Positions 1-8,069 of a DNA stretch of 8,069 bases are shown here, one piece after another. Made by a program: the position numbers and the translations under genes. Every line of letters starts with the position of its first letter. Position 1 is the stretch's first letter. The notes beneath the pieces are model-generated. The model made no database searches and was not told the DNA's origin. It was given only the letters and a program-made list of their open reading frames with translations. Location of the stretch: the NCBI RefSeq assembly GCF_016680995.1, contig NZ_JAEQMG010000079.1, positions 1 to 8,069 of the forward strand. The letters are read 5' to 3'. Source of the DNA: Ruminococcus difficilis (GTDB lineage Bacteria > Bacillota_A > Clostridia > Oscillospirales > Acutalibacteraceae).

Positions 1-357
1 GAAAATATAGTTGTCACCTGTCAGCCTAATGTTTTGATTCTGCTTGAGCGCTTCGTTATATGCTAAGCTGTCCTTTTTCAACGCCTCAATGTTTATATAA
101 CCGTTTGATCTTGATGATGTTACTCCGTCTGACCGGCTATGCTCCCTTGTATCAGTATCATAATCCGTTTTGTATTTGTCTTTATTTTCAGGCTGTCTAT
201 TACTACCGCTATCCGTTTTTCCACTTTGGCTCTCTTGGAGTTGTTCGATAGACTGGTTAAAATCATTTATTTTGCTCTCCACTTGGACATAATGAGAATA
301 GTACATTGTTAAAATTACTGCCATAATGATTACGCCGATAGACGTTATACCGATCAC
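1..357 (-). CDS. N-terminal part of a membrane-anchored, sortase-like protein (runs off the window)
   Basis: The minus-strand frame is open from 393 down to base 1 and continues beyond the window. It encodes a basic RVCKW stretch, one hydrophobic segment of about 20 residues (LVIGITSIGVIIMAVILTMY), then a polar helix-rich region (VQVESKINDFNQSIEQLQES), a Ser/Asp/Lys linker and DSLAYNEALKQNQN. A single N-terminal anchor, a polar stalk and a 'YN..L' stretch resemble the N-terminus of clostridial class B/C-like sortases, but the catalytic His/Cys/Arg domain lies outside the window, so the family is a guess. The start is unresolved. GTG at 357 is the first usual start in the open part. An upstream ATG at 417-415 is in the same frame and makes an ATGA overlap with a preceding stop, but a TGA at 396-394 separates it from the body. 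Confidence 0.42.
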   Translation of the reverse strand, partial: MIGITSIGVIIMAVILTMYYSHYVQVESKINDFNQSIEQLQESQSGKTDSGSNRQPENKDKYKTDYDTDTREHSRSDGVTSSRSNGYINIEALKKDSLAYNEALKQNQNIRLTGDNYIF

Positions 358-413
358 CAGCCACTTGCAAACCCGAATTTGAAAACCACGATTTCATAAG
401 TGGTTACTGCCCC

Positions 414-530
414 TCATAGGGCTTTAATAAAATCCTCCAAAACGCTTGAAAACAAAGGATTTATCGCAATGTGTCCGCCTTATCCCTTTATACGATTTCA
501 CTTGCGTTTATGCTTCCCTCGCCACCTCAT
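414..530 (-). pseudogene. Decayed 3' end of an unrecognised gene upstream of the sortase-like gene
   Basis: In one minus-strand frame, 39 codons from the ATG at 530-528 to a terminal TGA at 416-414 read as protein-like sequence interrupted by two stops: MRWRGKHKRK, TGA, NRIKG, TAA, then GGHIAINPLFSSVLEDFIKAL and the final stop. The final TGA overlaps the candidate ATG of the sortase-like frame as ATGA, the usual sign of translational coupling in an operon. A GGAGGA ribosome-binding-like stretch lies at 438-433. This may be the remnant of the gene once upstream in that operon, cut at its other end by the left border of the integrated element. I do not recognise the family. Low complexity is not the explanation, but chance coding cannot be excluded over so short a length. 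Confidence 0.28.
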
Positions 531-550
531 AAGGGCAAAAATAAGGGAAG
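513..550. repeat. Candidate left attachment site (attL) of the integrative element
   Basis: Bases 526-549 match 7740-7763 at 22 of 24 positions in direct orientation, sharing TAAGGGCAAAAA and AAGGGAA. The left copy sits inside a CTTCCCT (513-519) / AGGGAAG (544-550) dyad, and the right copy sits in a corresponding dyad just after the integrase stop codon. Tyrosine integrases bind inverted core sites around a short crossover region, so paired dyads in direct orientation at the two ends of the gene cluster fit attL and attR. The exact crossover point cannot be set without an empty site. Confidence 0.6.
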
Positions 551-579
551 AAAAATCTGATAACAAGCTATAAAAACAA

Positions 580-606
580 GTGGCAATCGGGAAACTGTGA
601 CATATG
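580..606 (+). repeat. Left arm of a long-range inverted repeat
   Basis: The sequence GTGGCAATCGGGA, then AA, then CTGTGACATATG is the reverse complement of 6374-6398 except for the two extra A bases. The copy ends about 30 bases before the tnpV start codon and lies about 30 bases inside the candidate attL. Its role is unknown; possibilities include a regulator or recombinase binding site, or the scar of a rearrangement. Confidence 0.75.
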
Positions 607-636
607 TGCGAATATATTATACTGGAGGATTTCAAG

Positions 637-1014
637 ATGGACAAGTACATTTATGATGAAAACAACGGTCTTTGGTATGAACTGCAAGGCGAATACTATT
701 TGCCGTGCCTTAGCTTGCCACCCGAAGAAGAAAAGCCTATCGGGATATGGGGACAGCGGCACAAACGCTACCTGAAAGAACATAGAAAAGCAACCTACAC
801 AACACTTCTGACCAGCGGTAAGCTCAACACTTATCTTTCCGGCATCAACGAACAGGCGCAGGAACGCTTTGAACGGCTCATAGATGGCATGAAGCAGGCA
901 CAGGGTATCACGGAACAATTAAAGGCGGAAAACGCCTTAGAATGGGTCAGGAGAATGAATAATATACGGGCTTGTGCGATGGAGATTGTGAATAAAGAAA
1001 TCATCTTCGCATAG
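637..1014 (+). CDS. tnpV: TnpV-family transposon-encoded protein
   Basis: The 125-residue product is soluble and has the features I associate with the TnpV family: an N-terminal WYELQGEYYLPCL stretch (about residues 13-25), IGIWGQRHKRYLKEH (36-50), then TYTTLLTSGKLNTYL (53-67) and a helical Gln/Glu-rich C-terminus. TnpV proteins occur next to recombinase and mobilization genes in clostridial transposons; their biochemical role is not established. The ATG at 637 is chosen because GGAGG at 624-628 lies 8 bases upstream. An in-frame ATG at 604 has no ribosome binding site and falls in the inverted repeat. The gene is single, at the left end of the element, and is closed by its own terminator. 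Confidence 0.8.
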   Translation: MDKYIYDENNGLWYELQGEYYLPCLSLPPEEEKPIGIWGQRHKRYLKEHRKATYTTLLTSGKLNTYLSGINEQAQERFERLIDGMKQAQGITEQLKAENALEWVRRMNNIRACAMEIVNKEIIFA

Positions 1015-1035
1015 CAGACTGGCGGTAACGCAAAG

Positions 1036-1074
1036 CGAGGGGTAAAGGTGTAAATGCCTTACCCCTCGTATTTT
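1036..1074 (+). terminator. Rho-independent terminator of tnpV
   Basis: A perfect 10-bp stem, CGAGGGGTAA (1036-1045) with TTACCCCTCG (1059-1068), has a 13-base loop and is followed by TATTTTAT. It begins 22 bases after the tnpV stop and separates this gene from the cargo operon. Confidence 0.8.
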
Positions 1075-1200
1075 ATGACGAGAATATGGCTTAACACAAG
1101 GCATTTGTGGGTTAAAAGCGCTACAGTAGAGAGATTATGCTGAAAACATAGGGTTTGGCAATCCAAAAGCAAACTTTTTATGAATGTTGTCTGTTGCCTC

Positions 1201-1229
1201 TTGACTTATATCGGCAATCTATATATAAT
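1201..1229 (+). promoter_or_regulatory. Sigma-A type promoter of the padR operon
   Basis: TTGACT at 1201-1206 and TATAAT at 1224-1229 are separated by exactly 17 bases. The predicted transcript would start near 1236, within the dyad described at 1209-1249, so a bound regulator would block it. No internal promoter was found before the next three genes, so it likely drives padR through the KTR gene. Confidence 0.8.
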
Positions 1230-1249
1230 CGATATGTAGACTGTCGATA
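1209..1249. promoter_or_regulatory. Imperfect dyad over the padR -10 region, probable PadR operator
   Basis: The left arm (1209-1225, TATCGGCAATCTATATA) and the reverse complement of the right arm (1233-1249, TATCGACAGTCTACATA) agree at 14 of 17 positions. The dyad spans the -10 box and predicted transcription start. PadR proteins usually repress their own operons by binding AT-rich dyads of this size, so autoregulation is the natural reading. That this particular PadR binds it is inferred. Confidence 0.65.
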
Positions 1250-1264
1250 CAAGGAGGGACATAT

Positions 1265-1612
1265 ATGGCAATTGATAAATCTCTGATTTCAGGGAATACA
1301 GATATGCTGATTTTGAAGCTGCTTGAAAAACAAGATATGTATGGGTATCAGATGATAGAAGAACTTGCGAAGCAATCCGACCATACTTTTGAATTGAAAG
1401 CAGGAACATTATATCCTCTGCTCCATCTCTTAGAGCAAAAGCAGTATCTTGTGTCCTATGACGGAGAAACTGTTGCGGGGAAAACAAGAAAATATTACAG
1501 GATTACAGATGAAGGGAAAAGATTTCTTGTGGTGCGGCTGTCTGAGTGGGAAAGCTACTCTGCCGCAGTCAATAAGGTTTTGTCGGGGGGTGTTTTGCTT
1601 GCAGGAATATAA
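1265..1612 (+). CDS. PadR-family transcriptional regulator
   Basis: The 115-residue protein is the length of a minimal PadR regulator. It has the winged-helix pattern DMLILKLLEKQDMYGYQMIEEL (residues 13-34, given in part), then FELKAGTLYPLLHLLEQKQYL (41-61 region), in which GTLYPLL is the family signature, and the wing TRKYYRITDEGKRFL. Such dimeric repressors typically sense envelope stress or small molecules and control neighbouring membrane-protein genes. GGAGG at 1253-1257 lies 7 bases before the ATG. The C-terminus (SGGVLLAGI) is encoded in the stretch that overlaps the start of the next gene by 14 bases, so the two are translationally coupled. The regulator and its partner form the known PadR plus PadR-associated-domain pairing. 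Confidence 0.93.
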   Translation: MAIDKSLISGNTDMLILKLLEKQDMYGYQMIEELAKQSDHTFELKAGTLYPLLHLLEQKQYLVSYDGETVAGKTRKYYRITDEGKRFLVVRLSEWESYSAAVNKVLSGGVLLAGI

Positions 1613-2894
1613 TTCTCCCGAAGAATATATCAAGGATGTTCAAAGATACATTCGTTGGAGCAGAGCAAAGGTTGTGGCAACAAGAGAGCTTTCTGACCAC
1701 ATAAACGACCAATACGATGCTTTGCGGGAAAACGGTCTGAATCAGAAAGAAGCAATGAGAAAAGCCATTGAAGAAATGGGCGATGCAGATGTAGTTGGGA
1801 CAGAGCTTGATATTGTCCACCGCCCGAAAGTGAATTGGCTGTTGCTGCTCATAGCAGGCGTGTTGCTGCTGAGTGGTATTCTAATCTCTGCTATGCTAAC
1901 CTCAATATCCCTGACCGTACCAAAGATAATCGGTATTGTGCTTGGAGTTTGTGTTGCTGCTTTTTTGTATTTTATTGATTACACTGTCTTAATTCGCTTT
2001 CCAAGAGCGTTATACGGACTGCTCTCACTGGCGGCAATCTTCGGGCTACTCTATGAATTATGGAACGGATTTGCACCGCTTGGATACGGTTTTCTGTTCT
2101 ACCTGCTGCTATGCTATCCGATTGTTTTGGTCGGAATCCTGTTTTATGAAAAGAACAGTGAAAGCGAGACAAAAATCATACATTACTGGCTATATGCTAT
2201 TTTTCCGCTGACTTTAGCGTTAATAAATCAAGCGTTTCCAGTTTTTGTGTTGCTGTTGGCTTGCGAGCTATTCATCTTTTGCTGCGGGTTAAAATTAAAA
2301 TGGCTGAAATGGAATCGTGTTAATATCTTCGGTGTGGCTTGTATGCTGATTTTTCTTATTATCGGAGTGTACCTGTTAAGCCGCTTTTATCATCTTTTTC
2401 GCTTGCAGGAAAATACAGGATATTTACAACAGCTCGATTTCTTTTCGGTGTTTCGTGAAGCGGAGTTAATTGGAAAAAGCGGAATGCCTGTTGATGTGAA
2501 GGTAATGAGCTACTTCTATGACCACCCAATCACCCTGCTCCTGTACGAATACGGAAAATTTTCACTTATATTTTTGCTGTTTGTATTCGGGATATTGTTT
2601 GCTATCCTTTACAGGACTTCAAAAAAGCAGGATACAGAGGTTGGCAAACTTCTAACCAATACCGTGCTGTTGATTTATATTTTACGAATTGTTTTCACTG
2701 CCTTATCCGACATTGGGGTTCTTCCGAACTTCTTTATGTGCGTCCCCTTCGTTGTAACAGGAGGAATGTTCATTATTTACGATATGGCACTTGTTGGAAT
2801 TATCCTATCAGTAAACCGCAATGAGAGCATTGCAAAGGATTGGATTAAATTAAAAAGCAAGCGTAACGCTGCTAAAAACGGAGGTCAACTATGA
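1599..2894 (+). CDS. Membrane protein with N-terminal PadR-associated (HAAS/permease-prefix) domain and divergent SEDS (FtsW/RodA-like) body
   Basis: The 431-residue product starts with a soluble helical domain of about 75 residues (EEYIKDVQRYIRW; RELSDHINDQYDALRENG; EAMRKAIEEMGDADVVG). This is the domain seen in PadR-linked membrane proteins. Residues 79-405 hold about nine or ten hydrophobic segments. The C-terminal half resembles SEDS proteins: a large loop after about residue 265 with GYLQQL and LIGKSG, then YEYGKFSLIFLL, and a last pair of segments with DIGVLPNFFMCVPFVVTGG followed by ALVGIILSVNRNES, matching the FtsW pattern 'IGvlP.tGiPlPFvS.GG...l...GilLsi.R'. The catalytic Asp of the 'HTDFIFA' motif seems absent; the aligned stretch reads DHPITLLLYE (308-317). 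TTG at 1599 is preferred because a G-rich Shine-Dalgarno (1585-1590) precedes it; GTG at 1590 is an alternative. Its stop overlaps the next ATG by ATGA. A polymerase role is not assured. Confidence 0.72.
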   Translation: MQEYNSPEEYIKDVQRYIRWSRAKVVATRELSDHINDQYDALRENGLNQKEAMRKAIEEMGDADVVGTELDIVHRPKVNWLLLLIAGVLLLSGILISAMLTSISLTVPKIIGIVLGVCVAAFLYFIDYTVLIRFPRALYGLLSLAAIFGLLYELWNGFAPLGYGFLFYLLLCYPIVLVGILFYEKNSESETKIIHYWLYAIFPLTLALINQAFPVFVLLLACELFIFCCGLKLKWLKWNRVNIFGVACMLIFLIIGVYLLSRFYHLFRLQENTGYLQQLDFFSVFREAELIGKSGMPVDVKVMSYFYDHPITLLLYEYGKFSLIFLLFVFGILFAILYRTSKKQDTEVGKLLTNTVLLIYILRIVFTALSDIGVLPNFFMCVPFVVTGGMFIIYDMALVGIILSVNRNESIAKDWIKLKSKRNAAKNGGQL

Positions 2895-3361
2895 AAAAAT
2901 TCTTATGTGCTATTCTATTCTTGACGATGGTAATCAGTCTCTCCGCCTGCGGCGGTAAAGGCGTTTCGACACTTGTGAAGCATTATGGTCAGGAAAAGGT
3001 CGATGAAATGGAAATCGAGTGTACCGATGAAACACAGCTAAAGGTCGCAAATGACCTCATAGCAGAAGCAAAGGATATTATGTCTTACTGCGGGTCAGGA
3101 GACGGTACGAATAAAGAGGACTGCGGTGCGTTAGAAAGATACTATTTCTTTGATGATAAGGCGGTTCGGGCAGATGTTTCGATAGAACTTGTAACCACCA
3201 AACAGGAAAATGGGAAGGGATATATCTGGGTGAAATATTCAGCCGATTATTACGATAAGGATGATACTCTCATTTCTGGTAACGGAGAAGCATATTCACG
3301 TTGGGATATTGAACAGTTAGATGGAAAATGGACGGTAACGTTAATTGACGAAATACCGTAA
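2891..3361 (+). CDS. Small secreted lipoprotein of unknown function
   Basis: The 156-residue product has a classic lipoprotein signal: MKKF, a hydrophobic core (LCAILFLTMVIS) and the lipobox LSAC, with the lipidated cysteine at residue 20 followed by GGKG. The mature part is acidic, contains three more cysteines (44, 67 and 79) and an aromatic, beta-strand-like C-terminus (YIWVKYSADYY, WDIEQLDGKWTVTLI) similar in style to small extracellular domains. I recognise no family. GGAGG at 2880-2884 lies 6 bases before the ATG, which overlaps the stop of the membrane protein gene by four bases. The coupling suggests that the lipoprotein works with that protein at the outer face of the membrane. Confidence 0.85.
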   Translation: MKKFLCAILFLTMVISLSACGGKGVSTLVKHYGQEKVDEMEIECTDETQLKVANDLIAEAKDIMSYCGSGDGTNKEDCGALERYYFFDDKAVRADVSIELVTTKQENGKGYIWVKYSADYYDKDDTLISGNGEAYSRWDIEQLDGKWTVTLIDEIP

Positions 3362-3375
3362 GGATTGGTGAGTGT

Positions 3376-3552
3376 ATGCAGAAACAAGCCGAATGGATAT
3401 TATGTCCTGTTTGTGGCAACAAAACCCGTGACAGAACAAGATATGATACGGTCTTGAAAAACTATCCTCTCTACTGCCCGAAGTGCAAGCAGGAAACGCT
3501 GATAGAAGCAGAGAACTTGAAAGTAACCGTTATAAAGAAACAGGAAAACTAA
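3376..3552 (+). CDS. Cysteine-rich KTR domain protein
   Basis: This short gene encodes 58 residues: an N-terminal EWILCPVCGNKTRDRTRYDT stretch and a second YCPKCKQE knuckle. The four cysteines (10, 13, 34, 37) form two CxxC pairs expected to hold one zinc ion, and NKTR after the first pair is the signature of the Cys-rich KTR family, common in clostridial mobile elements and of unknown function. It starts 14 bases after the lipoprotein stop; its ribosome binding site is weak (AAGGA at 3360-3364, or GGTGAG at 3366-3371). It ends just before a strong terminator and is probably the last gene of the padR operon. Confidence 0.85.
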   Translation: MQKQAEWILCPVCGNKTRDRTRYDTVLKNYPLYCPKCKQETLIEAENLKVTVIKKQEN

Positions 3553-3566
3553 TCTCTATATGTATG

Positions 3567-3603
3567 CCGCCGTGTATGGGTAAAACCATAGCGGCGGTTT
3601 TTC
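3567..3603 (+). terminator. Rho-independent terminator closing the padR operon
   Basis: CCGCCG (3567-3572) and TATGG (3575-3579) pair with CCATA (3586-3590) and CGGCGG (3592-3597), with a small internal loop, and a run of five T follows. It lies between the convergent KTR and relaxase genes. The T run is on the plus strand only, so it mainly stops plus-strand transcription, though the stem may also slow polymerase coming from the relaxase gene. Confidence 0.85.
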
Positions 3604-3608
3604 TTCGC

Positions 3609-5021
3609 CTATCGGCTGCCTCTGTCAAAGGATTTCTTTCGTGGCTTTTGCTGTCTGCCCTGCTCCTGCAACTGTCTGAGCCTGTTTCGGACGCTCTCCT
3701 TTTCGGGCGGTCTTGGCGGTCTGCTCTTTTGTTTCACCTGACGCTCCCATTCGGCAAGGTCACGGTTGTATTGTTCCACAACGGCTTCCGCCTCCCGATA
3801 GGTCGCCATGAATGCCTGCACATCGGGATAACCGTCCTCCCTGAGAATATCGGGGAGCTTATCCAGCCTGCGGTCAATTTCTTGCTCCGTCTGCTGTATC
3901 TGCTCGGTAAGGGCTTTGCGCTCCTTGCCCTTGAAAATCCCTGTTGTTTCTGCAAGCTGTGTTTTCAGCTTGGGCAGAATGTTGTCCTGCAAATTCCTAA
4001 TCCCTCTTGCCTCATCCTGCACCCGTATCATTAGATTCCGCATGGTGCAGAACTCTGTCATATCAATATCCAGCGTGGGCTTCGGCGGTATCCCGTATTC
4101 ACGGATAAGGTTTTGTAAAATGTCCTTCGCCTTGTTCACGATACGGCGGAACAGATTCGGCAGCCAGCCCTCGCTTTTAATGGATTGGCTAACCTTGTCG
4201 TGTATCTCGGTTTGTTTGATTTCCAGTATTTTAGCCTCCTCAATCCCCGATACAAGTGCCATGTCCGCTGTCCTGTTCCATTCCTGCCTTGTAGCGTTGT
4301 CGGCTGCAATCTCTTCGGCTTTGGGATTGTTCTTGCCTATTTTCTTTGTCGGCAGGTACACGCTGTTTTTGTCAAATACCTTCAGGTGCTGTTCAGGGTT
4401 TTCAATATGGAGATTGATAAGGTTTGTATAATCCTCTTTTACCTCCCGAAGAAAAGGCTCTCTCTTGAAGCGGTCATCCTTTACGGTGAACAGATGGCTT
4501 TCGTAAACCTCTCCCTTTTTGATAATGGTACAGCCTTTTCTTATCTGCCCGTCCTCACCTGTGATTTCCTTCTTGGTGCGTACCCGCTTGCCTGTTTCGT
4601 CAAAGAATACGCTTCTTGTGGCAATCTTCACATCAGGCTCAGGAAGCAGCTTCCTTTCGCTGAAAATCAGATGAATGTGGTAATTGGTCTTGCGCTTATT
4701 GTGGTGCAATGCCGACACACATTCCACGCCGTACCGCCTGCGGAACTCATCTGTAAAATCCTCAAGCACCTGCTGCGGCTCGTACTGCGTGTAAACTTCG
4801 GGCAGGGCGATAATCAGCTCCCTTGCCTCAATACATTTCCCCTCTGCGCCGCTGCGCTGGAACTCCTGCCGGCTCTCCCTTGCGAGATTATTCCAAAAGG
4901 CATTGTCGGCGGTGCGGTAAGTGGCGTACAGATTTTCCTGTCTTGCGTGGCTGGTGATATACGATATTCGTCCTTTGACATTAGGCAGCTTCGACATCTG
5001 TATGAAGCTGTGTCTTGCCAT
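3609..5021 (-). CDS. MobA/MobL-family relaxase (MOBQ type)
   Basis: The 470-residue protein nicks the transfer origin of the element and stays linked to the 5' end of the strand it leads into the recipient. The relaxase domain fills about residues 1-240. Tyr21 in KGRISYITSH is the probable nicking tyrosine by position. The metal-binding three-histidine motif is HHNKRKTNYHIHLIFSER, with His107, His115 and His117 likely ligands. Residues 265-460 are charged and helical (LKTQLAETT, LTEQIQQTEQEIDRRL, AEAVVEQYNRDLAEWERQ), and the tail PPRPPEKE...RKKSFDRGSR is basic. AAAGG at 5029-5033 sits 7 bases before the ATG. No coupling protein or type IV secretion genes are present, so the element must borrow the conjugation machinery of a co-resident element. 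Confidence 0.92.
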   Translation of the reverse strand: MARHSFIQMSKLPNVKGRISYITSHARQENLYATYRTADNAFWNNLARESRQEFQRSGAEGKCIEARELIIALPEVYTQYEPQQVLEDFTDEFRRRYGVECVSALHHNKRKTNYHIHLIFSERKLLPEPDVKIATRSVFFDETGKRVRTKKEITGEDGQIRKGCTIIKKGEVYESHLFTVKDDRFKREPFLREVKEDYTNLINLHIENPEQHLKVFDKNSVYLPTKKIGKNNPKAEEIAADNATRQEWNRTADMALVSGIEEAKILEIKQTEIHDKVSQSIKSEGWLPNLFRRIVNKAKDILQNLIREYGIPPKPTLDIDMTEFCTMRNLMIRVQDEARGIRNLQDNILPKLKTQLAETTGIFKGKERKALTEQIQQTEQEIDRRLDKLPDILREDGYPDVQAFMATYREAEAVVEQYNRDLAEWERQVKQKSRPPRPPEKESVRNRLRQLQEQGRQQKPRKKSFDRGSR

Positions 5022-5058
5022 AATCCAACCTTTCTTTAAAATATACCGTTCTCATTTT

Positions 5059-5078
5059 GCAACCGTCTTGACGGTTGC
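5059..5078. repeat. Perfect 9-bp inverted repeat just upstream of the relaxase gene
   Basis: GCAACCGTC and GACGGTTGC are perfect reverse complements separated by TT. The left arm overlaps a TTTTGCAA box at 5055-5062 that matches the boxes in front of the excisionase-like and XRE genes. The repeat lies about 38 bases before the relaxase start and may be an operator for the relaxase gene or part of the transfer origin. Confidence 0.7.
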
Positions 5079-5249
5079 TGCTGTTTCGGCGGCTTTGCTG
5101 ACGGAACAGCGCCGTATCAAAAGCGGCAGGGATTTCCTGCAAGCGTTGATACGGTAGCTCCCCGCAGGGGCGAAATACCCTGAGTACAAATCGACAGATT
5201 TGTGCGAGGGGTGTATTTCGCTCTCAAACGCCGAGGGCTTTAAGAACGG
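5079..5249. other. Non-coding hairpin cluster, candidate origin of transfer (oriT)
   Basis: Several stems are packed between the relaxase and excisionase-like genes. CCGTATCAA (5112-5120) pairs with TTGATACGG (5146-5154), enclosing GCAGG/CCTGC (5126-5130 and 5136-5140) with a symmetric AAGCG on each side. CCCC/GGGG flanks GCA at 5160-5170. GCGAAATAC (5170-5178) pairs with GTATTTCGC (5213-5221), enclosing ACAAATC/GATTTGT (5186-5192 and 5197-5203) with a GACA loop. None has a T run, so they are poor terminators. Stem-loops directly upstream of a relaxase gene are typical of oriT; the nick site cannot be identified by eye. Confidence 0.55.
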
Positions 5250-5465
5250 TCAATCTACTCGGCGGACATCATTCTGATTGAGAAGATTTCTGCCTTGATT
5301 GACCGTCATAAAACGCTCCAGCGTGTCCCTTCGGATAATGGTCTTGCGCCCTACCTTTAAGACAGGCAGCTTGCCCCAGTCCACCAATTTCCGCATGGTG
5401 TTCCTGCCGATACCCGTACATTCGGCGGCTTCCTCGATGGTCATACCTATTTTAACTGCGTTCAT
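5250..5465 (-). CDS. Excisionase-like small helix-turn-helix DNA-binding protein
   Basis: The 71-residue protein matches the excisionase/MerR-like HTH_17 fold: MTIEEAAECTGIGRNTMRKLVDWGKL (residues 8-33 region) forms the helix-turn-helix, and LPVLKVGRKTIIRRDTLERFM is the wing and last helix. Proteins of this type bend DNA at attachment sites and shift the integrase from integration to excision, or act as small regulators. AGGAGG (5473-5478) lies about 8 bases upstream of the ATG. It is divergent from the XRE gene and followed by the candidate oriT and relaxase, so it may be cotranscribed with the relaxase. Unlike many Xis genes it is not adjacent to int. Confidence 0.8.
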   Translation of the reverse strand: MNAVKIGMTIEEAAECTGIGRNTMRKLVDWGKLPVLKVGRKTIIRRDTLERFMTVNQGRNLLNQNDVRRVD

Positions 5466-5490
5466 TATCTCATCCTCCTTTTGAAATACT

Positions 5491-5603
5491 TGTTTTGCAA
5501 CTGTACAATCCTAATTATACTTATTTTGCAATCTCGTGTCAACCTGTTTTGCAACTGTTTAGGAATTTTTTTTAATATTTATCCCGTTTCAGGGTTGCAA
5601 TCT
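5491..5603. repeat. Array of four TTGCAA-centred boxes in the divergent control region
   Basis: TTGCAA, itself palindromic, occurs at 5495-5500, 5526-5531, 5549-5554 and 5595-5600. Boxes 1 and 3 share TGTTTTGCAACTGT exactly (5491-5504 and 5545-5558); boxes 2 and 4 share TTGCAATCT (5526-5534 and 5595-5603). A fifth TTTTGCAA is at 5055-5062 before the relaxase. Positions relative to the two promoters (spacer, upstream, start site, -35) are those of operators. The XRE-family protein encoded alongside is the likely ligand, though the excisionase-like protein is also possible. Confidence 0.75.
5514..5542 (-). promoter_or_regulatory. Consensus sigma-A promoter for the excisionase-like gene
   Basis: On the minus strand, TTGACA (5542-5537) and TATAAT (5519-5514) are both perfect hexamers with a 17-base spacer. 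Transcription would start near 5507. A TTTTGCAA box lies in the spacer (5524-5531), one just upstream (5547-5554) and one just downstream of the start (5493-5500), so this very strong promoter is probably kept silent by a repressor. Confidence 0.85.
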
Positions 5604-5623
5604 GCATTTTGATGTGCTATAAT
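5595..5623 (+). promoter_or_regulatory. Sigma-A promoter of the XRE regulator gene with operator over the -35 box
   Basis: TTGCAA (5595-5600) and TATAAT (5618-5623) are separated by 17 bases, and TG at 5615-5616 gives an extended -10. The -35 hexamer is itself the fourth TTGCAA box, which implies negative autoregulation if the box is bound by the gene product. The leader would be short, starting near 5630 and leading directly into the AGGAGG at 5634-5639. Confidence 0.8.
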
Positions 5624-5647
5624 GATACTCGTCAGGAGGTGGAAACC

Positions 5648-6313
5648 TTGAAAAAAGAAATTGAATTCACCGCAAAACAAGTCGGTGAACGGGTAAAAGA
5701 GCGCCGAACAGAACTAAACCTTACCATGCCTGAGCTTGGAAAGCGTATCGGCGTAAACAAATCCACCATTCAGCGGTATGAAGCAGACGGCGTTGACCCG
5801 AAGCGTACTATGATTATCAACGGTCTTGCCGATGCGCTGCTTACCACTCCCGAATGGCTGACAGGGCTTTCCGAGGAAAAGGAATATGATGCCCGCACGC
5901 TCTGCCAAAAGGACATTGAGGAGCATATCAAAAAGTACCTTGATACGGTTTCCTCCACGGTCAGCGGAGAGCCGCACCAGCAGCTTCTTACCACCTTCCT
6001 CGGCAAGATGATTGACCTGTACTCGGTGCTGTGCCACTACTTTGCCAACGCTATGGCGGAGGTTGACCGTGTGGCGGAGGACGAGGGCTTGAAGCAGTCG
6101 ATTATGCGGTATGCGATTGAGGTGGGCGCAATCGAAGAACGGGTCTACCGCAAAGAAATGGAAATACCTATCGAAGATATGAAGCGTTTTTTAGACGGAA
6201 TTTTACATATCTACGATGAGGGACGCACCAAAGTATCTATGGGCGACCTCTTCGGGATAGTGACGGAAGCCGAAAACAGGCTTGCCGAAAAAGAAAATTC
6301 CGTGGCACCTTGA
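5648..6313 (+). CDS. XRE-family helix-turn-helix regulator, probable master repressor of the element
   Basis: The 221-residue protein has an N-terminal Cro/CI-type domain: VGERVKERRTELNLTM, PELGKRIGVNKSTIQRYEADG (about residues 28-48) and a following helix ending in LLTTPEWLTGLS, the usual end of such domains. The remaining 150 residues are helical and acidic, with no autocleavage (LexA/CI-like) or metallopeptidase motif seen, and may serve dimerization. The TTG at 5648 is chosen because AGGAGG at 5634-5639 lies 8 bases upstream; the in-frame ATG at 5612 overlaps the promoter -10 box and so cannot be on the main transcript. By position it likely controls itself, the divergent excisionase-like gene and perhaps the relaxase. 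Confidence 0.85.
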   Translation: MKKEIEFTAKQVGERVKERRTELNLTMPELGKRIGVNKSTIQRYEADGVDPKRTMIINGLADALLTTPEWLTGLSEEKEYDARTLCQKDIEEHIKKYLDTVSSTVSGEPHQQLLTTFLGKMIDLYSVLCHYFANAMAEVDRVAEDEGLKQSIMRYAIEVGAIEERVYRKEMEIPIEDMKRFLDGILHIYDEGRTKVSMGDLFGIVTEAENRLAEKENSVAP

Positions 6314-6323
6314 CAAAAAAATA

Positions 6324-6345
6324 TGCCGATTGAAACCAACCGGCA
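6324..6345 (+). other. Hairpin between the XRE gene and int
   Basis: TGCCG (6324-6328) and TTG (6330-6332) pair with CAA (6337-6339) and CGGCA (6341-6345), with one A/C mismatch and an AAAC loop. It begins 11 bases after the XRE stop. No T run follows, so it may be a weak terminator or a transcript-stabilising structure that lowers read-through into int. Confidence 0.4.
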
Positions 6346-6373
6346 AAAGTGACATTCTTTACTTTACGCACAC

Positions 6374-6398
6374 CATATGTCACAGTCCCGATTGCCAC
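6374..6398 (-). repeat. Right arm of the long-range inverted repeat, upstream of int
   Basis: CATATGTCACAG followed by TCCCGATTGCCAC is the reverse complement of 580-606, lacking only two A bases of that copy. It ends 22 bases before the int start codon, next to the int ribosome binding site. A second small inverted repeat, GTGACAT at 6349-6355 with ATGTCAC at 6377-6383, overlaps it, which hints at protein binding in front of int. Confidence 0.75.
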
Positions 6399-6420
6399 GG
6401 ATAGAAAGGAGTTTTTATCT

Positions 6421-7719
6421 ATGGCAAAAGGTTCTGTAAGAAAGAAAGGCAAAAAGTGGTACTACCGCTTCTATATCGAAGATGAAAGCGGCAATCTGGT
6501 ACAGCGTGAATTCGTGGGAACAGAAAGCAAATCCGAAACGGAAGCCCTGCTCCGCAAGGCGATGGAGGACTACGAGGAAAAGAAATTCGTTGCAAAGTCT
6601 GAAAACGCCACGGTGGGAATGCTGCTGGATATGTGGGTGGAGGAAGAACTAAAGCCCGGCAGTCTCAGCAACGGTACGGTAATGGCATATCAGGGTACGG
6701 TAAACCGTATCAAGCAGCACCCTATCGGCAGCCGAAAGCTGAAAACCGTCACCGCCGACCATTTGCAGGCGTATATGGATTTTCTCAGCTTCGGCGGGAC
6801 AAATCCCGACGGTACAACGGCAAAGGCACTTAGCAAAGGGTATCTGCGTTTGTTCTCGGCAGTCCTGCAAGGAGCGTTCCACTTTGCGGTATTCCCCAAA
6901 CGGCTGATTACCTTCAACCCGATGCAGTATGTGGTATGGCGGGGCAAAAAAGAGGACTATGACCTGTTTTCGGACGAGGACGGCAATACCGATTCCACAC
7001 CCACGCTCAGCCATGAGCAATATCTGAAGCTGGAGGAATTTCTGAAAAAGAAAGATAACCCCGCTTTACTGCCCATTCAGATTGCCTACTACACGGGGCT
7101 TCGCATCGGCGAAGTCTGCGGCTTGACTTGGCAGGATGTCAACCTTGACAAGCAGTACCTTACGGTGCGCCGCAGTATGCGCTACAACGGGGCAAGGCAT
7201 AAAACCGAGATAGGAGCGACCAAACGGAAGAAAGTCCGTACCGTGGACTTCTGCGACACGCTGGCGGTGATCCTCAAAGCGGCGAAAACCGAACAGCACA
7301 AAAACCGCCTCCAGTATGGCGGGCTTTACCACCTCAACTACTACACCGAGGTGAAGGAAAAAGACCGTACTTACTACGAGGTTTACAGCCTGCCGAGGAC
7401 AGATGAAATCCCAGAGGGGTACAAGGAAATATCCTTTGTCTGCCTCAGACCTGACGGCGCATACGAATCACCGAGTACGGTAGGGATTATGTGCAGGACG
7501 GCAAGCAGAAAGGTCGAGGGCTTGGAGGGCTTTCATTTCCACCAACTTCGTCACACATTCACGAGCAATCTGCTCTCAAACGGGGCAGCGCCGAAGGATG
7601 TGCAGGAGCTTCTCGGACATGCCGATGTCAGTACCACAATGAATATTTACGCTCACGCTACAAGGGAAGCGAAGCGTACTTCCGCAAGACTGCTGGATAA
7701 GGTGGTCGGCGGAGAGTAA
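6421..7719 (+). CDS. int: Tn916-like tyrosine recombinase (integrase)
   Basis: The 432-residue integrase catalyses strand exchange between the element's attachment site and the chromosome. Residues 1-58 form an arm-type DNA-binding domain ([22 protein letters not shown]); about 62-165 is the SAM-like core-binding domain ([14 protein letters not shown]); about 195-425 is the catalytic domain. All active-site residues are present: Arg228 in TGLRIGE, a lysine near 268-270, His374 and Arg377 in HFHQLRHTF, His400 in LLGH, and the nucleophile Tyr410 in MNIYAH. A spacer of about 70 residues between the lysine and HxxR blocks is longer than in phage lambda integrase but usual for Tn916-type enzymes. 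AGAAAGGAG (6403-6411) lies 9 bases before the ATG; an earlier in-frame start at 6349 lacks one. It is the last gene before the candidate attR. Confidence 0.95.
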
Positions 7720-7724
7720 AAAAC

Positions 7725-7764
7725 TTTCCCTTGTTTCGGCTCGTAAGGGCAAAAACAAGGGAAA
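7725..7764 (+). terminator. Perfect 12-bp stem after int: candidate terminator within attR
   Basis: TTTCCCTTGTTT (7725-7736) and AAACAAGGGAAA (7753-7764) are perfect reverse complements around a 16-base loop. The stem starts 6 bases after the int stop. No T run follows, so termination would be modest; its main role may be as the inverted core sites of the attachment site that shares the same bases. Confidence 0.5.
7740..7763 (+). repeat. Candidate right attachment site (attR)
   Basis: This segment matches 526-549 at 22 of 24 positions in the same orientation, differing at G/A (7743) and C/T (7756). It lies 20 bases after the int stop codon, the usual place for attR in elements of this type. 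The surrounding dyad is longer and more perfect than at the left copy, which suggests that this side carries the element's own core sequence and the other side more of the host target. Confidence 0.6.
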
Positions 7765-7790
7765 ATACATAAGGTTGGAACACAAGATAG

Positions 7791-8069
7791 GCGAAATGCC
7801 TTGAAAATACAGCGTTTTCAGAGGGTTTAACAGATAAACTGGAATTTAGAGGAGAAATCGTGTTTTTCTGCTGTGCGTCCCCATATGACAAAGATGCTTT
7901 TAAGCAGATCAGAAGTCATAATATGAAGGATAAACTATCTGATATTCCGATTTTTATTGCCGTGGTGCATGGGATATGGATTCAATGTCGTTCAAGGACA
8001 AGACACTGTGTAAAATGCTGAGAAAAGCAGTAAGCAAAAAGGATCCTGCCGATTATGAAATATGGGAGA
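7791..8069 (+). pseudogene. Truncated, frameshifted flavodoxin-like domain protein
   Basis: One frame from 7791 reads EFRGEIVFFCCASPYDKDAFKQ and on to LSDIPIF, then degenerates; the -1 frame takes over at about 7955 with YCRGAWDMDSMSFKDKTLCKMLRKAV and continues to the window end. The joined product resembles the C-terminal half of flavodoxin-like domain proteins ('..vFf...........ifhlrGg.d...lsfk.k.m.k.l'). The break is in a run of five T (7951-7955), where six would restore the frame. No N-terminal flavin-binding part or start codon with a ribosome binding site is seen upstream; a TAG at 7788 and the attR border precede it. The gene therefore seems truncated as well as shifted. The family call is from pattern memory only. 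Confidence 0.5.

Follow-up and report, generated by a model that had tools for sequence, protein, structure and literature searches.

The window analysed here, an 8,069-nucleotide stretch of Ruminococcus difficilis DNA (NZ_JAEQMG010000079.1, positions 1 to 8,069), contains an integrative mobilizable element (375-7847) whose cargo operon (1201-3552) pairs a PadR-family regulator with a membrane protein that joins an N-terminal HAAS domain to a divergent body of the SEDS fold, followed by a lipoprotein gene. We find that this module is a mobile, lipoprotein-bearing variant of the known HAAS-PadR dyad and that, as judged from aligned sequences, the HAAS-SEDS family keeps the SEDS fold and mostly the catalytic aspartate and is missing the complete conserved residue set around periplasmic loop 2 (PL2). 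This pattern over 68 relatives suggests a receptor role, and the SEDS-fold protein may act as a sensor or buffer of cell-wall stress and not as a wall builder.

The cargo operon

Four co-directed genes lie within 1201-3552, behind a promoter with two palindromes:

1201-1229, + strand: sigma-70-type promoter TTGACT-17-TATAAT, 11/12, at a position common to relatives
1207-1225, unstranded: operator-like palindrome 1, in the -35/-10 spacer, 19 bp, 6/9 pairs, found by comparison
1233-1251, unstranded: operator-like palindrome 2, just past the -10, 19 bp, 6/9 pairs, with a counterpart in L007-L009 and others
1265-1612, + strand: PadR-family regulator, 115 aa (PF03551, 79.8 bits, cut-off 27)
1599-2894, + strand: HAAS (permease prefix 1) and divergent SEDS-fold membrane protein, 431 aa, TTG start (PF01098, NF038403, fold comparison)
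2891-3361, + strand: lipoprotein, 156 aa, ATG start (lipobox Cys20; putative NTF2-like fold)
3376-3552, + strand: cysteine-rich KTR protein, 58 aa (PF14205, 103.5 bits, cut-off 25.5)

Coordinates and domain matches bear out the four genes and the two overlaps described in an initial annotation of this DNA: the PadR and HAAS-SEDS genes share 14 nt (1599-1612), ATGA (2891-2894) joins the HAAS-SEDS gene to the lipoprotein gene, and 14 nt separate the latter from the KTR gene, whose product probably belongs to the element backbone. The arrangement is that of a HAAS-PadR dyad, with a stand-alone PadR protein encoded in an overlapping frame and a permease prefix 1 domain (NF038403, 49.4 bits, cut-off 30) at the N-terminus of the membrane protein. 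Eleven predicted metagenomic proteins of 536-549 aa (P0003-P0013) fuse PadR to SEDS and carry both Pfam domains; such proteins could arise from one indel within the 14-nt overlap and may be real fusions or sequencing errors.

A SEDS fold without the complete PL2 residue set

The body of the membrane protein matches FTSW_RODA_SPOVE (PF01098) at 32.3 bits, above the cut-off of 26.4, and its predicted structure has the SEDS fold over model residues 71-414, placing it in the SEDS fold family. Seven SEDS chains headed both fold-comparison lists, leaving the alternative raised in the initial annotation, an ABC permease or other transporter fold, unsupported; its proposed fusion of a PadR-associated prefix domain to a divergent FtsW/RodA-like body is upheld by NF038403 and by the fold comparison. 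The protein cluster identical to the window membrane protein represents 2503 member sequences.

We compared 68 HAAS-SEDS proteins (59 distant, nine close) with eight canonical proteins, a small set consisting of the best PF01098 match from each of eight metagenome-assembled genomes (MAGs), using E. coli RodA numbering. Among the nine close rows, four (P0026, L007-L009) are near-copies, and the counts leave out L125 (split frame) and L010, a 57-residue HAAS-SEDS remnant without PadR. The complete Q111/E114/K117 set is present in 8/8 canonical proteins, 0/59 distant and 0/9 close HAAS-SEDS proteins; one distant member retains two of the three. None of the close proteins keeps any of Q111, E114, K117 or Trp102, all four of which are kept by 8/8 canonical proteins, and at Trp102, in the PL2 stretch, all nine are gapped. 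Pro257 is retained in 46/59 distant and 2/9 close members, and Arg210 in 43/59 distant members. The register of transmembrane helices 3 and 4 (TM3-TM4) and the placement of Pro257 shift between alignments; none gives Q, E or K in the window protein, whose residue at Pro257 is Met in one alignment and a gap in another.

The Asp262 column is better conserved, with Asp in 46/59 distant and 8/9 close proteins (54 Asp, 7 Glu, 5 Asn, 1 Gly and 1 Lys across the 68). D308 of the window protein pairs with Asp262 in three alignments, and pairwise BLAST also aligns the window Asp with the Lys of L110. Some members are therefore without even the catalytic Asp, yet are still found in PadR operons. Two further markers were dropped: Asp159, which is missing in 6/8 canonical proteins too, and Arg210 in the close group, where the alignment changed between two runs.

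In E. coli RodA-PBP2, Asp262Ala and Pro257Ala abolish activity and Trp102Ala, Gln111Ala and Asp159Val reduce it, and changes at the SpoVE equivalents of Glu114 and Lys117 severely affect sporulation (PMC10449877; this and the other papers are cited from excerpts of their text unless stated). Together, the missing SEDS residues and the published inability of the Listeria relative Lmo0421 to replace FtsW1 or RodA proteins (PMC6624303) weaken a peptidoglycan-polymerising role for the window protein.

These residues bear directly on the main rival explanation, in which the membrane protein works as a specialised SEDS glycosyltransferase or ligase, switched on by PadR when housekeeping enzymes are blocked and serving as a drug-tolerant back-up or acting on modified lipid II or another acceptor. 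In its favour, the catalytic Asp is kept in 54/68 proteins and aligned in the window, and the frequent Pro257 and Arg210 of distant members indicate that one lipid site may survive; both the back-up and the modified-lipid II ideas were left open for Lmo0421 (Hauf et al., PMC6624303). It fits poorly with the absence of the complete Q111/E114/K117 set from all 68 proteins, the gapped PL2 stretch of the close group, the 14 members without the Asp, and the Met or gap of the window at a proline whose replacement inactivates RodA. Nor did a Pfam scan of ten window proteins detect a penicillin-binding-protein domain. We consider an active enzyme unlikely.

PadR adjoins HAAS-SEDS genes across genomes

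A first search covered 398 genomes from the same phylum as the Clostridia MAG G004 (Bacillota by inference) and yielded matches starting in the HAAS region in at least 35 genomes; two matches starting elsewhere (the second in G211, and one in G319) were left unfetched. PadR adjoins the SEDS-like gene in 33/34 fetched regions, corresponding to 34/35 genes because L050 holds two; the PadR search used found none beside the SEDS-like gene of L081. A profile of the close group matched in 20/394 genomes, 18 of them new, and PadR adjoins in 18/18, with a gap of 76 bases in L123. The same neighbour is seen in L007-L009, L002 and the Listeria locus L001. The pairing of PadR regulators with prefix-domain membrane proteins, given as known in the initial annotation, is borne out by these relatives.

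The constancy of this pairing matters for a second alternative, that the SEDS-like protein is a pure effector, binding or blocking host FtsW/RodA complexes or shielding lipid II, and that PadR alone senses a small molecule. LmrR changes shape upon drug binding, aurantimycin induces the LftR-controlled lieAB, and the cold-harmful product of the Listeria lltR operon is the membrane protein Lmo0600 (PMC6624303), all consistent with such a division of labour. That HAAS stays beside PadR in 33/34 and 18/18 fetched loci, a coupling described as always holding (PMC11237479), argues instead for signalling through HAAS, and we judge the pure effector improbable.

Paired palindromes at the promoter

A strong promoter with a dyad operator had been proposed for the operon. 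The 11/12 promoter and two palindromes are present, and because promoter-like matches as a class occur at chance level (6 observed, 6.5 expected), the score alone proves little; comparison with relatives carries the support. Many relatives share TTGAC(A/T)-TATATAGATnATCTATATA-TAAT, with a second palindrome ~24-28 bp on, 5' of PadR, and the window palindromes lie where relatives have stricter pairs. We examined 57 upstream regions, which include the near-copies L007-L009 (L009 had been left out of an earlier upstream alignment). Two 19-bp palindromes with at least 7/9 pairs, 22-29 bp apart, occur in 20/57 regions against 0.53 expected from dinucleotide shuffles, in a count that used no consensus and whose 20 regions do not include the window. 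In 24/57 regions, the window included, a palindrome with at least 6/9 pairs lies in a TTGAC promoter's spacer, against 0.22 expected.

The PadR-SEDS order and the promoter palindromes are retained among proteins that share only 20-62% identity with the window's, which makes it very unlikely that the hosts carry the operon as passenger DNA that does little for them. What can be cited for passenger DNA is that Lmo0421 overproduction, or loss in that background, left sensitivity to six wall antibiotics unchanged and gave no ultrastructure phenotype in the tests used (excerpts of PMC6624303).

A lipoprotein and other genes in the third slot

The third gene has a signal-like N-terminus and a lipobox (LSAC) at Cys20, which by sequence identify a lipoprotein; Cys20 is invariant in 8/8 aligned rows (the window and seven relatives). 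We found no Pfam family for this protein, which may have an NTF2-like fold. Its metagenomic relatives P0043, P0048, P0054 and P0064 share 48-85% identity with it. Relatives outside the element were found in 8/394 genomes (E 1e-5), and two overlapping family draws gave the same 8/260 genomes each, besides the query's own (E 1e-12). Neither PadR nor SEDS was found at any of 15 fetched distant lipoprotein loci, two of which are cut by contig ends 0.3 kb (L094) and 0.6 kb (L140) upstream of the lipoprotein gene, where a PadR-SEDS pair would be invisible; the surroundings of a match at a contig start (G848) were left out of this count. Of the three-gene linkage expected from the initial annotation, therefore, the PadR-SEDS part is conserved and the lipoprotein part is not.

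In two relatives the slot directly 3' of HAAS-SEDS holds a VanZ gene (L007 3021-3638, 87.9 bits; L110 1904-2494, 84.7 bits), and an open reading frame (ORF) near-identical to the L007 VanZ gene is also present in L008. These VanZ genes uphold the envelope theme of the initial annotation and point towards protection from envelope-active compounds. Sigma-factor-like ORFs, Pfam-tested in L122 only, lie 83-184 bp 3' of HAAS-SEDS in 5/17 loci (L120-L123, L127).

We also asked whether distant HAAS-SEDS operons have a downstream partner in common: 11/35 genes are followed by a same-strand ORF, with no recurring protein by eye, and the two of these 11 scanned with Pfam gave no family. Separately, in L097 (4115-5321) a sigma-70-type gene precedes the gene for a zf-HC2 anti-sigma-like protein, and the C-terminal part of that protein matches the window lipoprotein profile (40.6 bits); this extracytoplasmic part sits behind zf-HC2 and a hydrophobic segment in L097, whereas in the window it is a free lipoprotein.

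A proposed receptor-repressor mechanism

The reading that we find most likely, though about as probable as not, is that a mobilizable element carries an inducible, autorepressed cassette against cell-envelope stress, with a receptor derived from a SEDS protein. The sequences show how the genes are ordered, the fold predicted for the membrane protein, where the palindromes lie, the linkage to PadR, the ends of the element and the residue differences; autorepression, the ligand, the direction of signalling and the part played by the lipoprotein are our inferences. PadR would occupy both tandem operators, which span its own promoter, and hold the operon off. The SEDS-fold body, probably no longer a peptidoglycan polymerase, would bind a ligand in the membrane or linked to lipid (a precursor carried on undecaprenyl-pyrophosphate, for instance, or a drug attached to one), and the N-terminal HAAS domain would relay ligand state to PadR, releasing repression. 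Derepression would yield more membrane protein and more lipoprotein, the latter acting outside the membrane as a co-sensor or shield. Autorepression has been shown in Listeria, where lstR deletion raises lmo0421 and sigC ~140-fold (Hauf et al. 2019, PMC6624303), and the HAAS-PadR pair has been proposed as an alternative to two-component systems (PMC11237479, which names HAAS).

More tentatively, HAAS-SEDS proteins in general could be SEDS pseudo-polymerases turned membrane receptors that report a lipid-linked precursor, or drug on it, to PadR, replacing a two-component system. A mobilizable element would have captured this receptor-repressor pair and would spread it among gut Clostridia, with relatives carrying exchangeable outputs (an NTF2-like lipoprotein, VanZ, or an extracytoplasmic-function (ECF) sigma factor).

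Several observations weigh against a receptor cassette. The catalytic Asp is kept in most of the family, including D308 of the window (periplasmic loop 4); individual residues of the conserved set also survive among the 59 distant members (Glu114 in 6, Gln111 in 1, Lys117 in 1, Trp102 in 14), and the in vitro effect of RodA Glu114Ala and Lys117Asn is modest (PMC10449877). The Pfam HAAS match is below cut-off (17.2 versus 27), and the GxP motif at the kink of the third HAAS helix (PMC11237479) is GDA in the window (G61-D62-A63) and varies among relatives. Both window operators are imperfect, at 6/9 pairs each, and the spacer palindrome is missing in 33/57 upstream regions. Finally, Listeria PsigC-lacZ was induced by none of the listed compounds (PMC6624303).

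The mobilizable element

The operon is carried within the following features:

375-7847, unstranded: whole integrative mobilizable element, GAATTT core at 375-380 and 7842-7847 (flank comparison)
604-1014, + strand: TnpV (PF14198) transposon-encoded protein (161.4 bits)
3609-5021, - strand: MobA/MobL-type relaxase (PF03389, 46.7 bits)
5250-5465, - strand: excisionase-like helix-turn-helix (HTH) protein (Tn916-Xis PF09035, TIGR01764)
5648-6313, + strand: HTH_3 regulator of the element (Pfam)
6421-7719, + strand: tyrosine recombinase (integrase) (PF00589, 98.2 bits)

Integrase, excisionase, relaxase and defined ends are thus all present, as in a mobilizable element. Near-identical copies occur in four MAGs, two of Ruminococcus and two of Clostridia: L003 covers window 375-7856 at 99.91% identity, L005 matches 367-4790 at 99.93%, L006 matches 368-3546 at 99.87%, and L004, whose contig starts inside the element, matches 683-7650 at 99.93% with a further 96 bases at 97.9% past a run of N. 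Left flanks diverge upstream of GAATTT among the window, L003, L005 and L006, and right flanks diverge downstream of it among the window, L003 and L004, indicating one element at different sites. These copies, flanks and ends uphold the initial description of the operon as mobile cargo.

The copies in L006 (9948) and L005 (11192) end early, at window 3546 and 4790, with unrelated DNA beyond; this early loss of the right end may reflect truncation or an assembly error or chimera. L007 carries a Mob_Pre relaxase and TnpV (40-1256) beside its PadR-SEDS-VanZ cassette, so relatives ride a second mobile backbone, and a near-identical copy of that cassette lies in L008, a contig labelled as an Alphaproteobacteria MAG, a bin label that may be wrong. 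The integrase of MT838164.1 (5.6 kb, Bacteriophage sp., human faeces) shares 70% identity with that of the window across 68% of its length, and the record could represent a mobilizable element instead of a phage. A tyrosine recombinase gene of the Agathobacter rectalis plasmid NZ_CP143948.1 shares 68% DNA identity with the window integrase region. Window 1-357, host DNA outside the element, holds a minus-strand open frame that runs off the left end, with one hydrophobic N-terminal segment and no Pfam family.

Other searches gave little. No tRNA that could serve as attachment site lies within the window, no Rfam match was obtained there at gathering scores, and no PADLOC phage-defence model matched the SEDS-like protein, the lipoprotein or KTR at E 0.01, with PadR giving a single weak match (Csa3, 16.7 bits). 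Among phages and plasmids we found weak matches in two Listeria phage records, one Listeria record and one Subdoligranulum record; plasmids held no near match of the operon DNA, and no viral contig was confirmed for SEDS, relaxase or lipoprotein.

Comparison with known systems

The module had been taken as possibly undescribed, which it is not: the same PadR/HAAS-SEDS pair is known as lstR-lmo0421 (PMC6624303), and the dyad has been named in PMC11237479, which lists an FtsW/RodA fusion (CAC98500.1) and a VanZ-type fusion. Among open-licence papers we found none on the pair as mobile cargo. Published work on Lmo0421-type SEDS proteins shows what Lmo0421 does not do (PMC6624303; PMC6686043), and Lmo0421 was set aside because its homology is weak and lineages I and III do not have it (PMC6686043); the main text of PMC6624303 nowhere uses the words catalytic, aspartate or active site. 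The residue pattern reported here offers a testable reason for the Lmo0421 negatives, and the mobile gut-bacterial copy makes the system small and portable enough for testing in laboratory strains.

FtsW, RodA and SpoVE share the fold and the Asp262 equivalent with the window protein, which differs in having none of Q111, E114, K117 and W102 and in its Met or gap at Pro257. VanZ-family proteins (PMC7146870) fill the third slot of the L007 and L110 operons, whereas the window slot holds a lipoprotein and no VanZ. The HAAS-PadR dyad of PMC11237479 has the same stand-alone PadR beside a HAAS membrane protein; the excerpts of that paper say nothing of carriage on a mobile element, of an NTF2-like lipoprotein as partner or of the SEDS residue state.

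The closest counterpart is Listeria sigC-lstR-lmo0421 (PMC6624303; PMC6686043), in which PadR likewise overlaps a HAAS-prefix SEDS-fold protein, homologous to the window protein over 392 columns. We also encountered this locus (L001) in a 569-kb record labelled 'plasmid 5' (NZ_LR134402.1), which also carries pgdA and is probably a piece of chromosome. A sigma-factor gene comes first in the Listeria operon, which has no lipoprotein gene; by contrast, no sigma domain was found in the ten window proteins scanned, and the window operon has a lipoprotein gene and lies in a mobilizable element.

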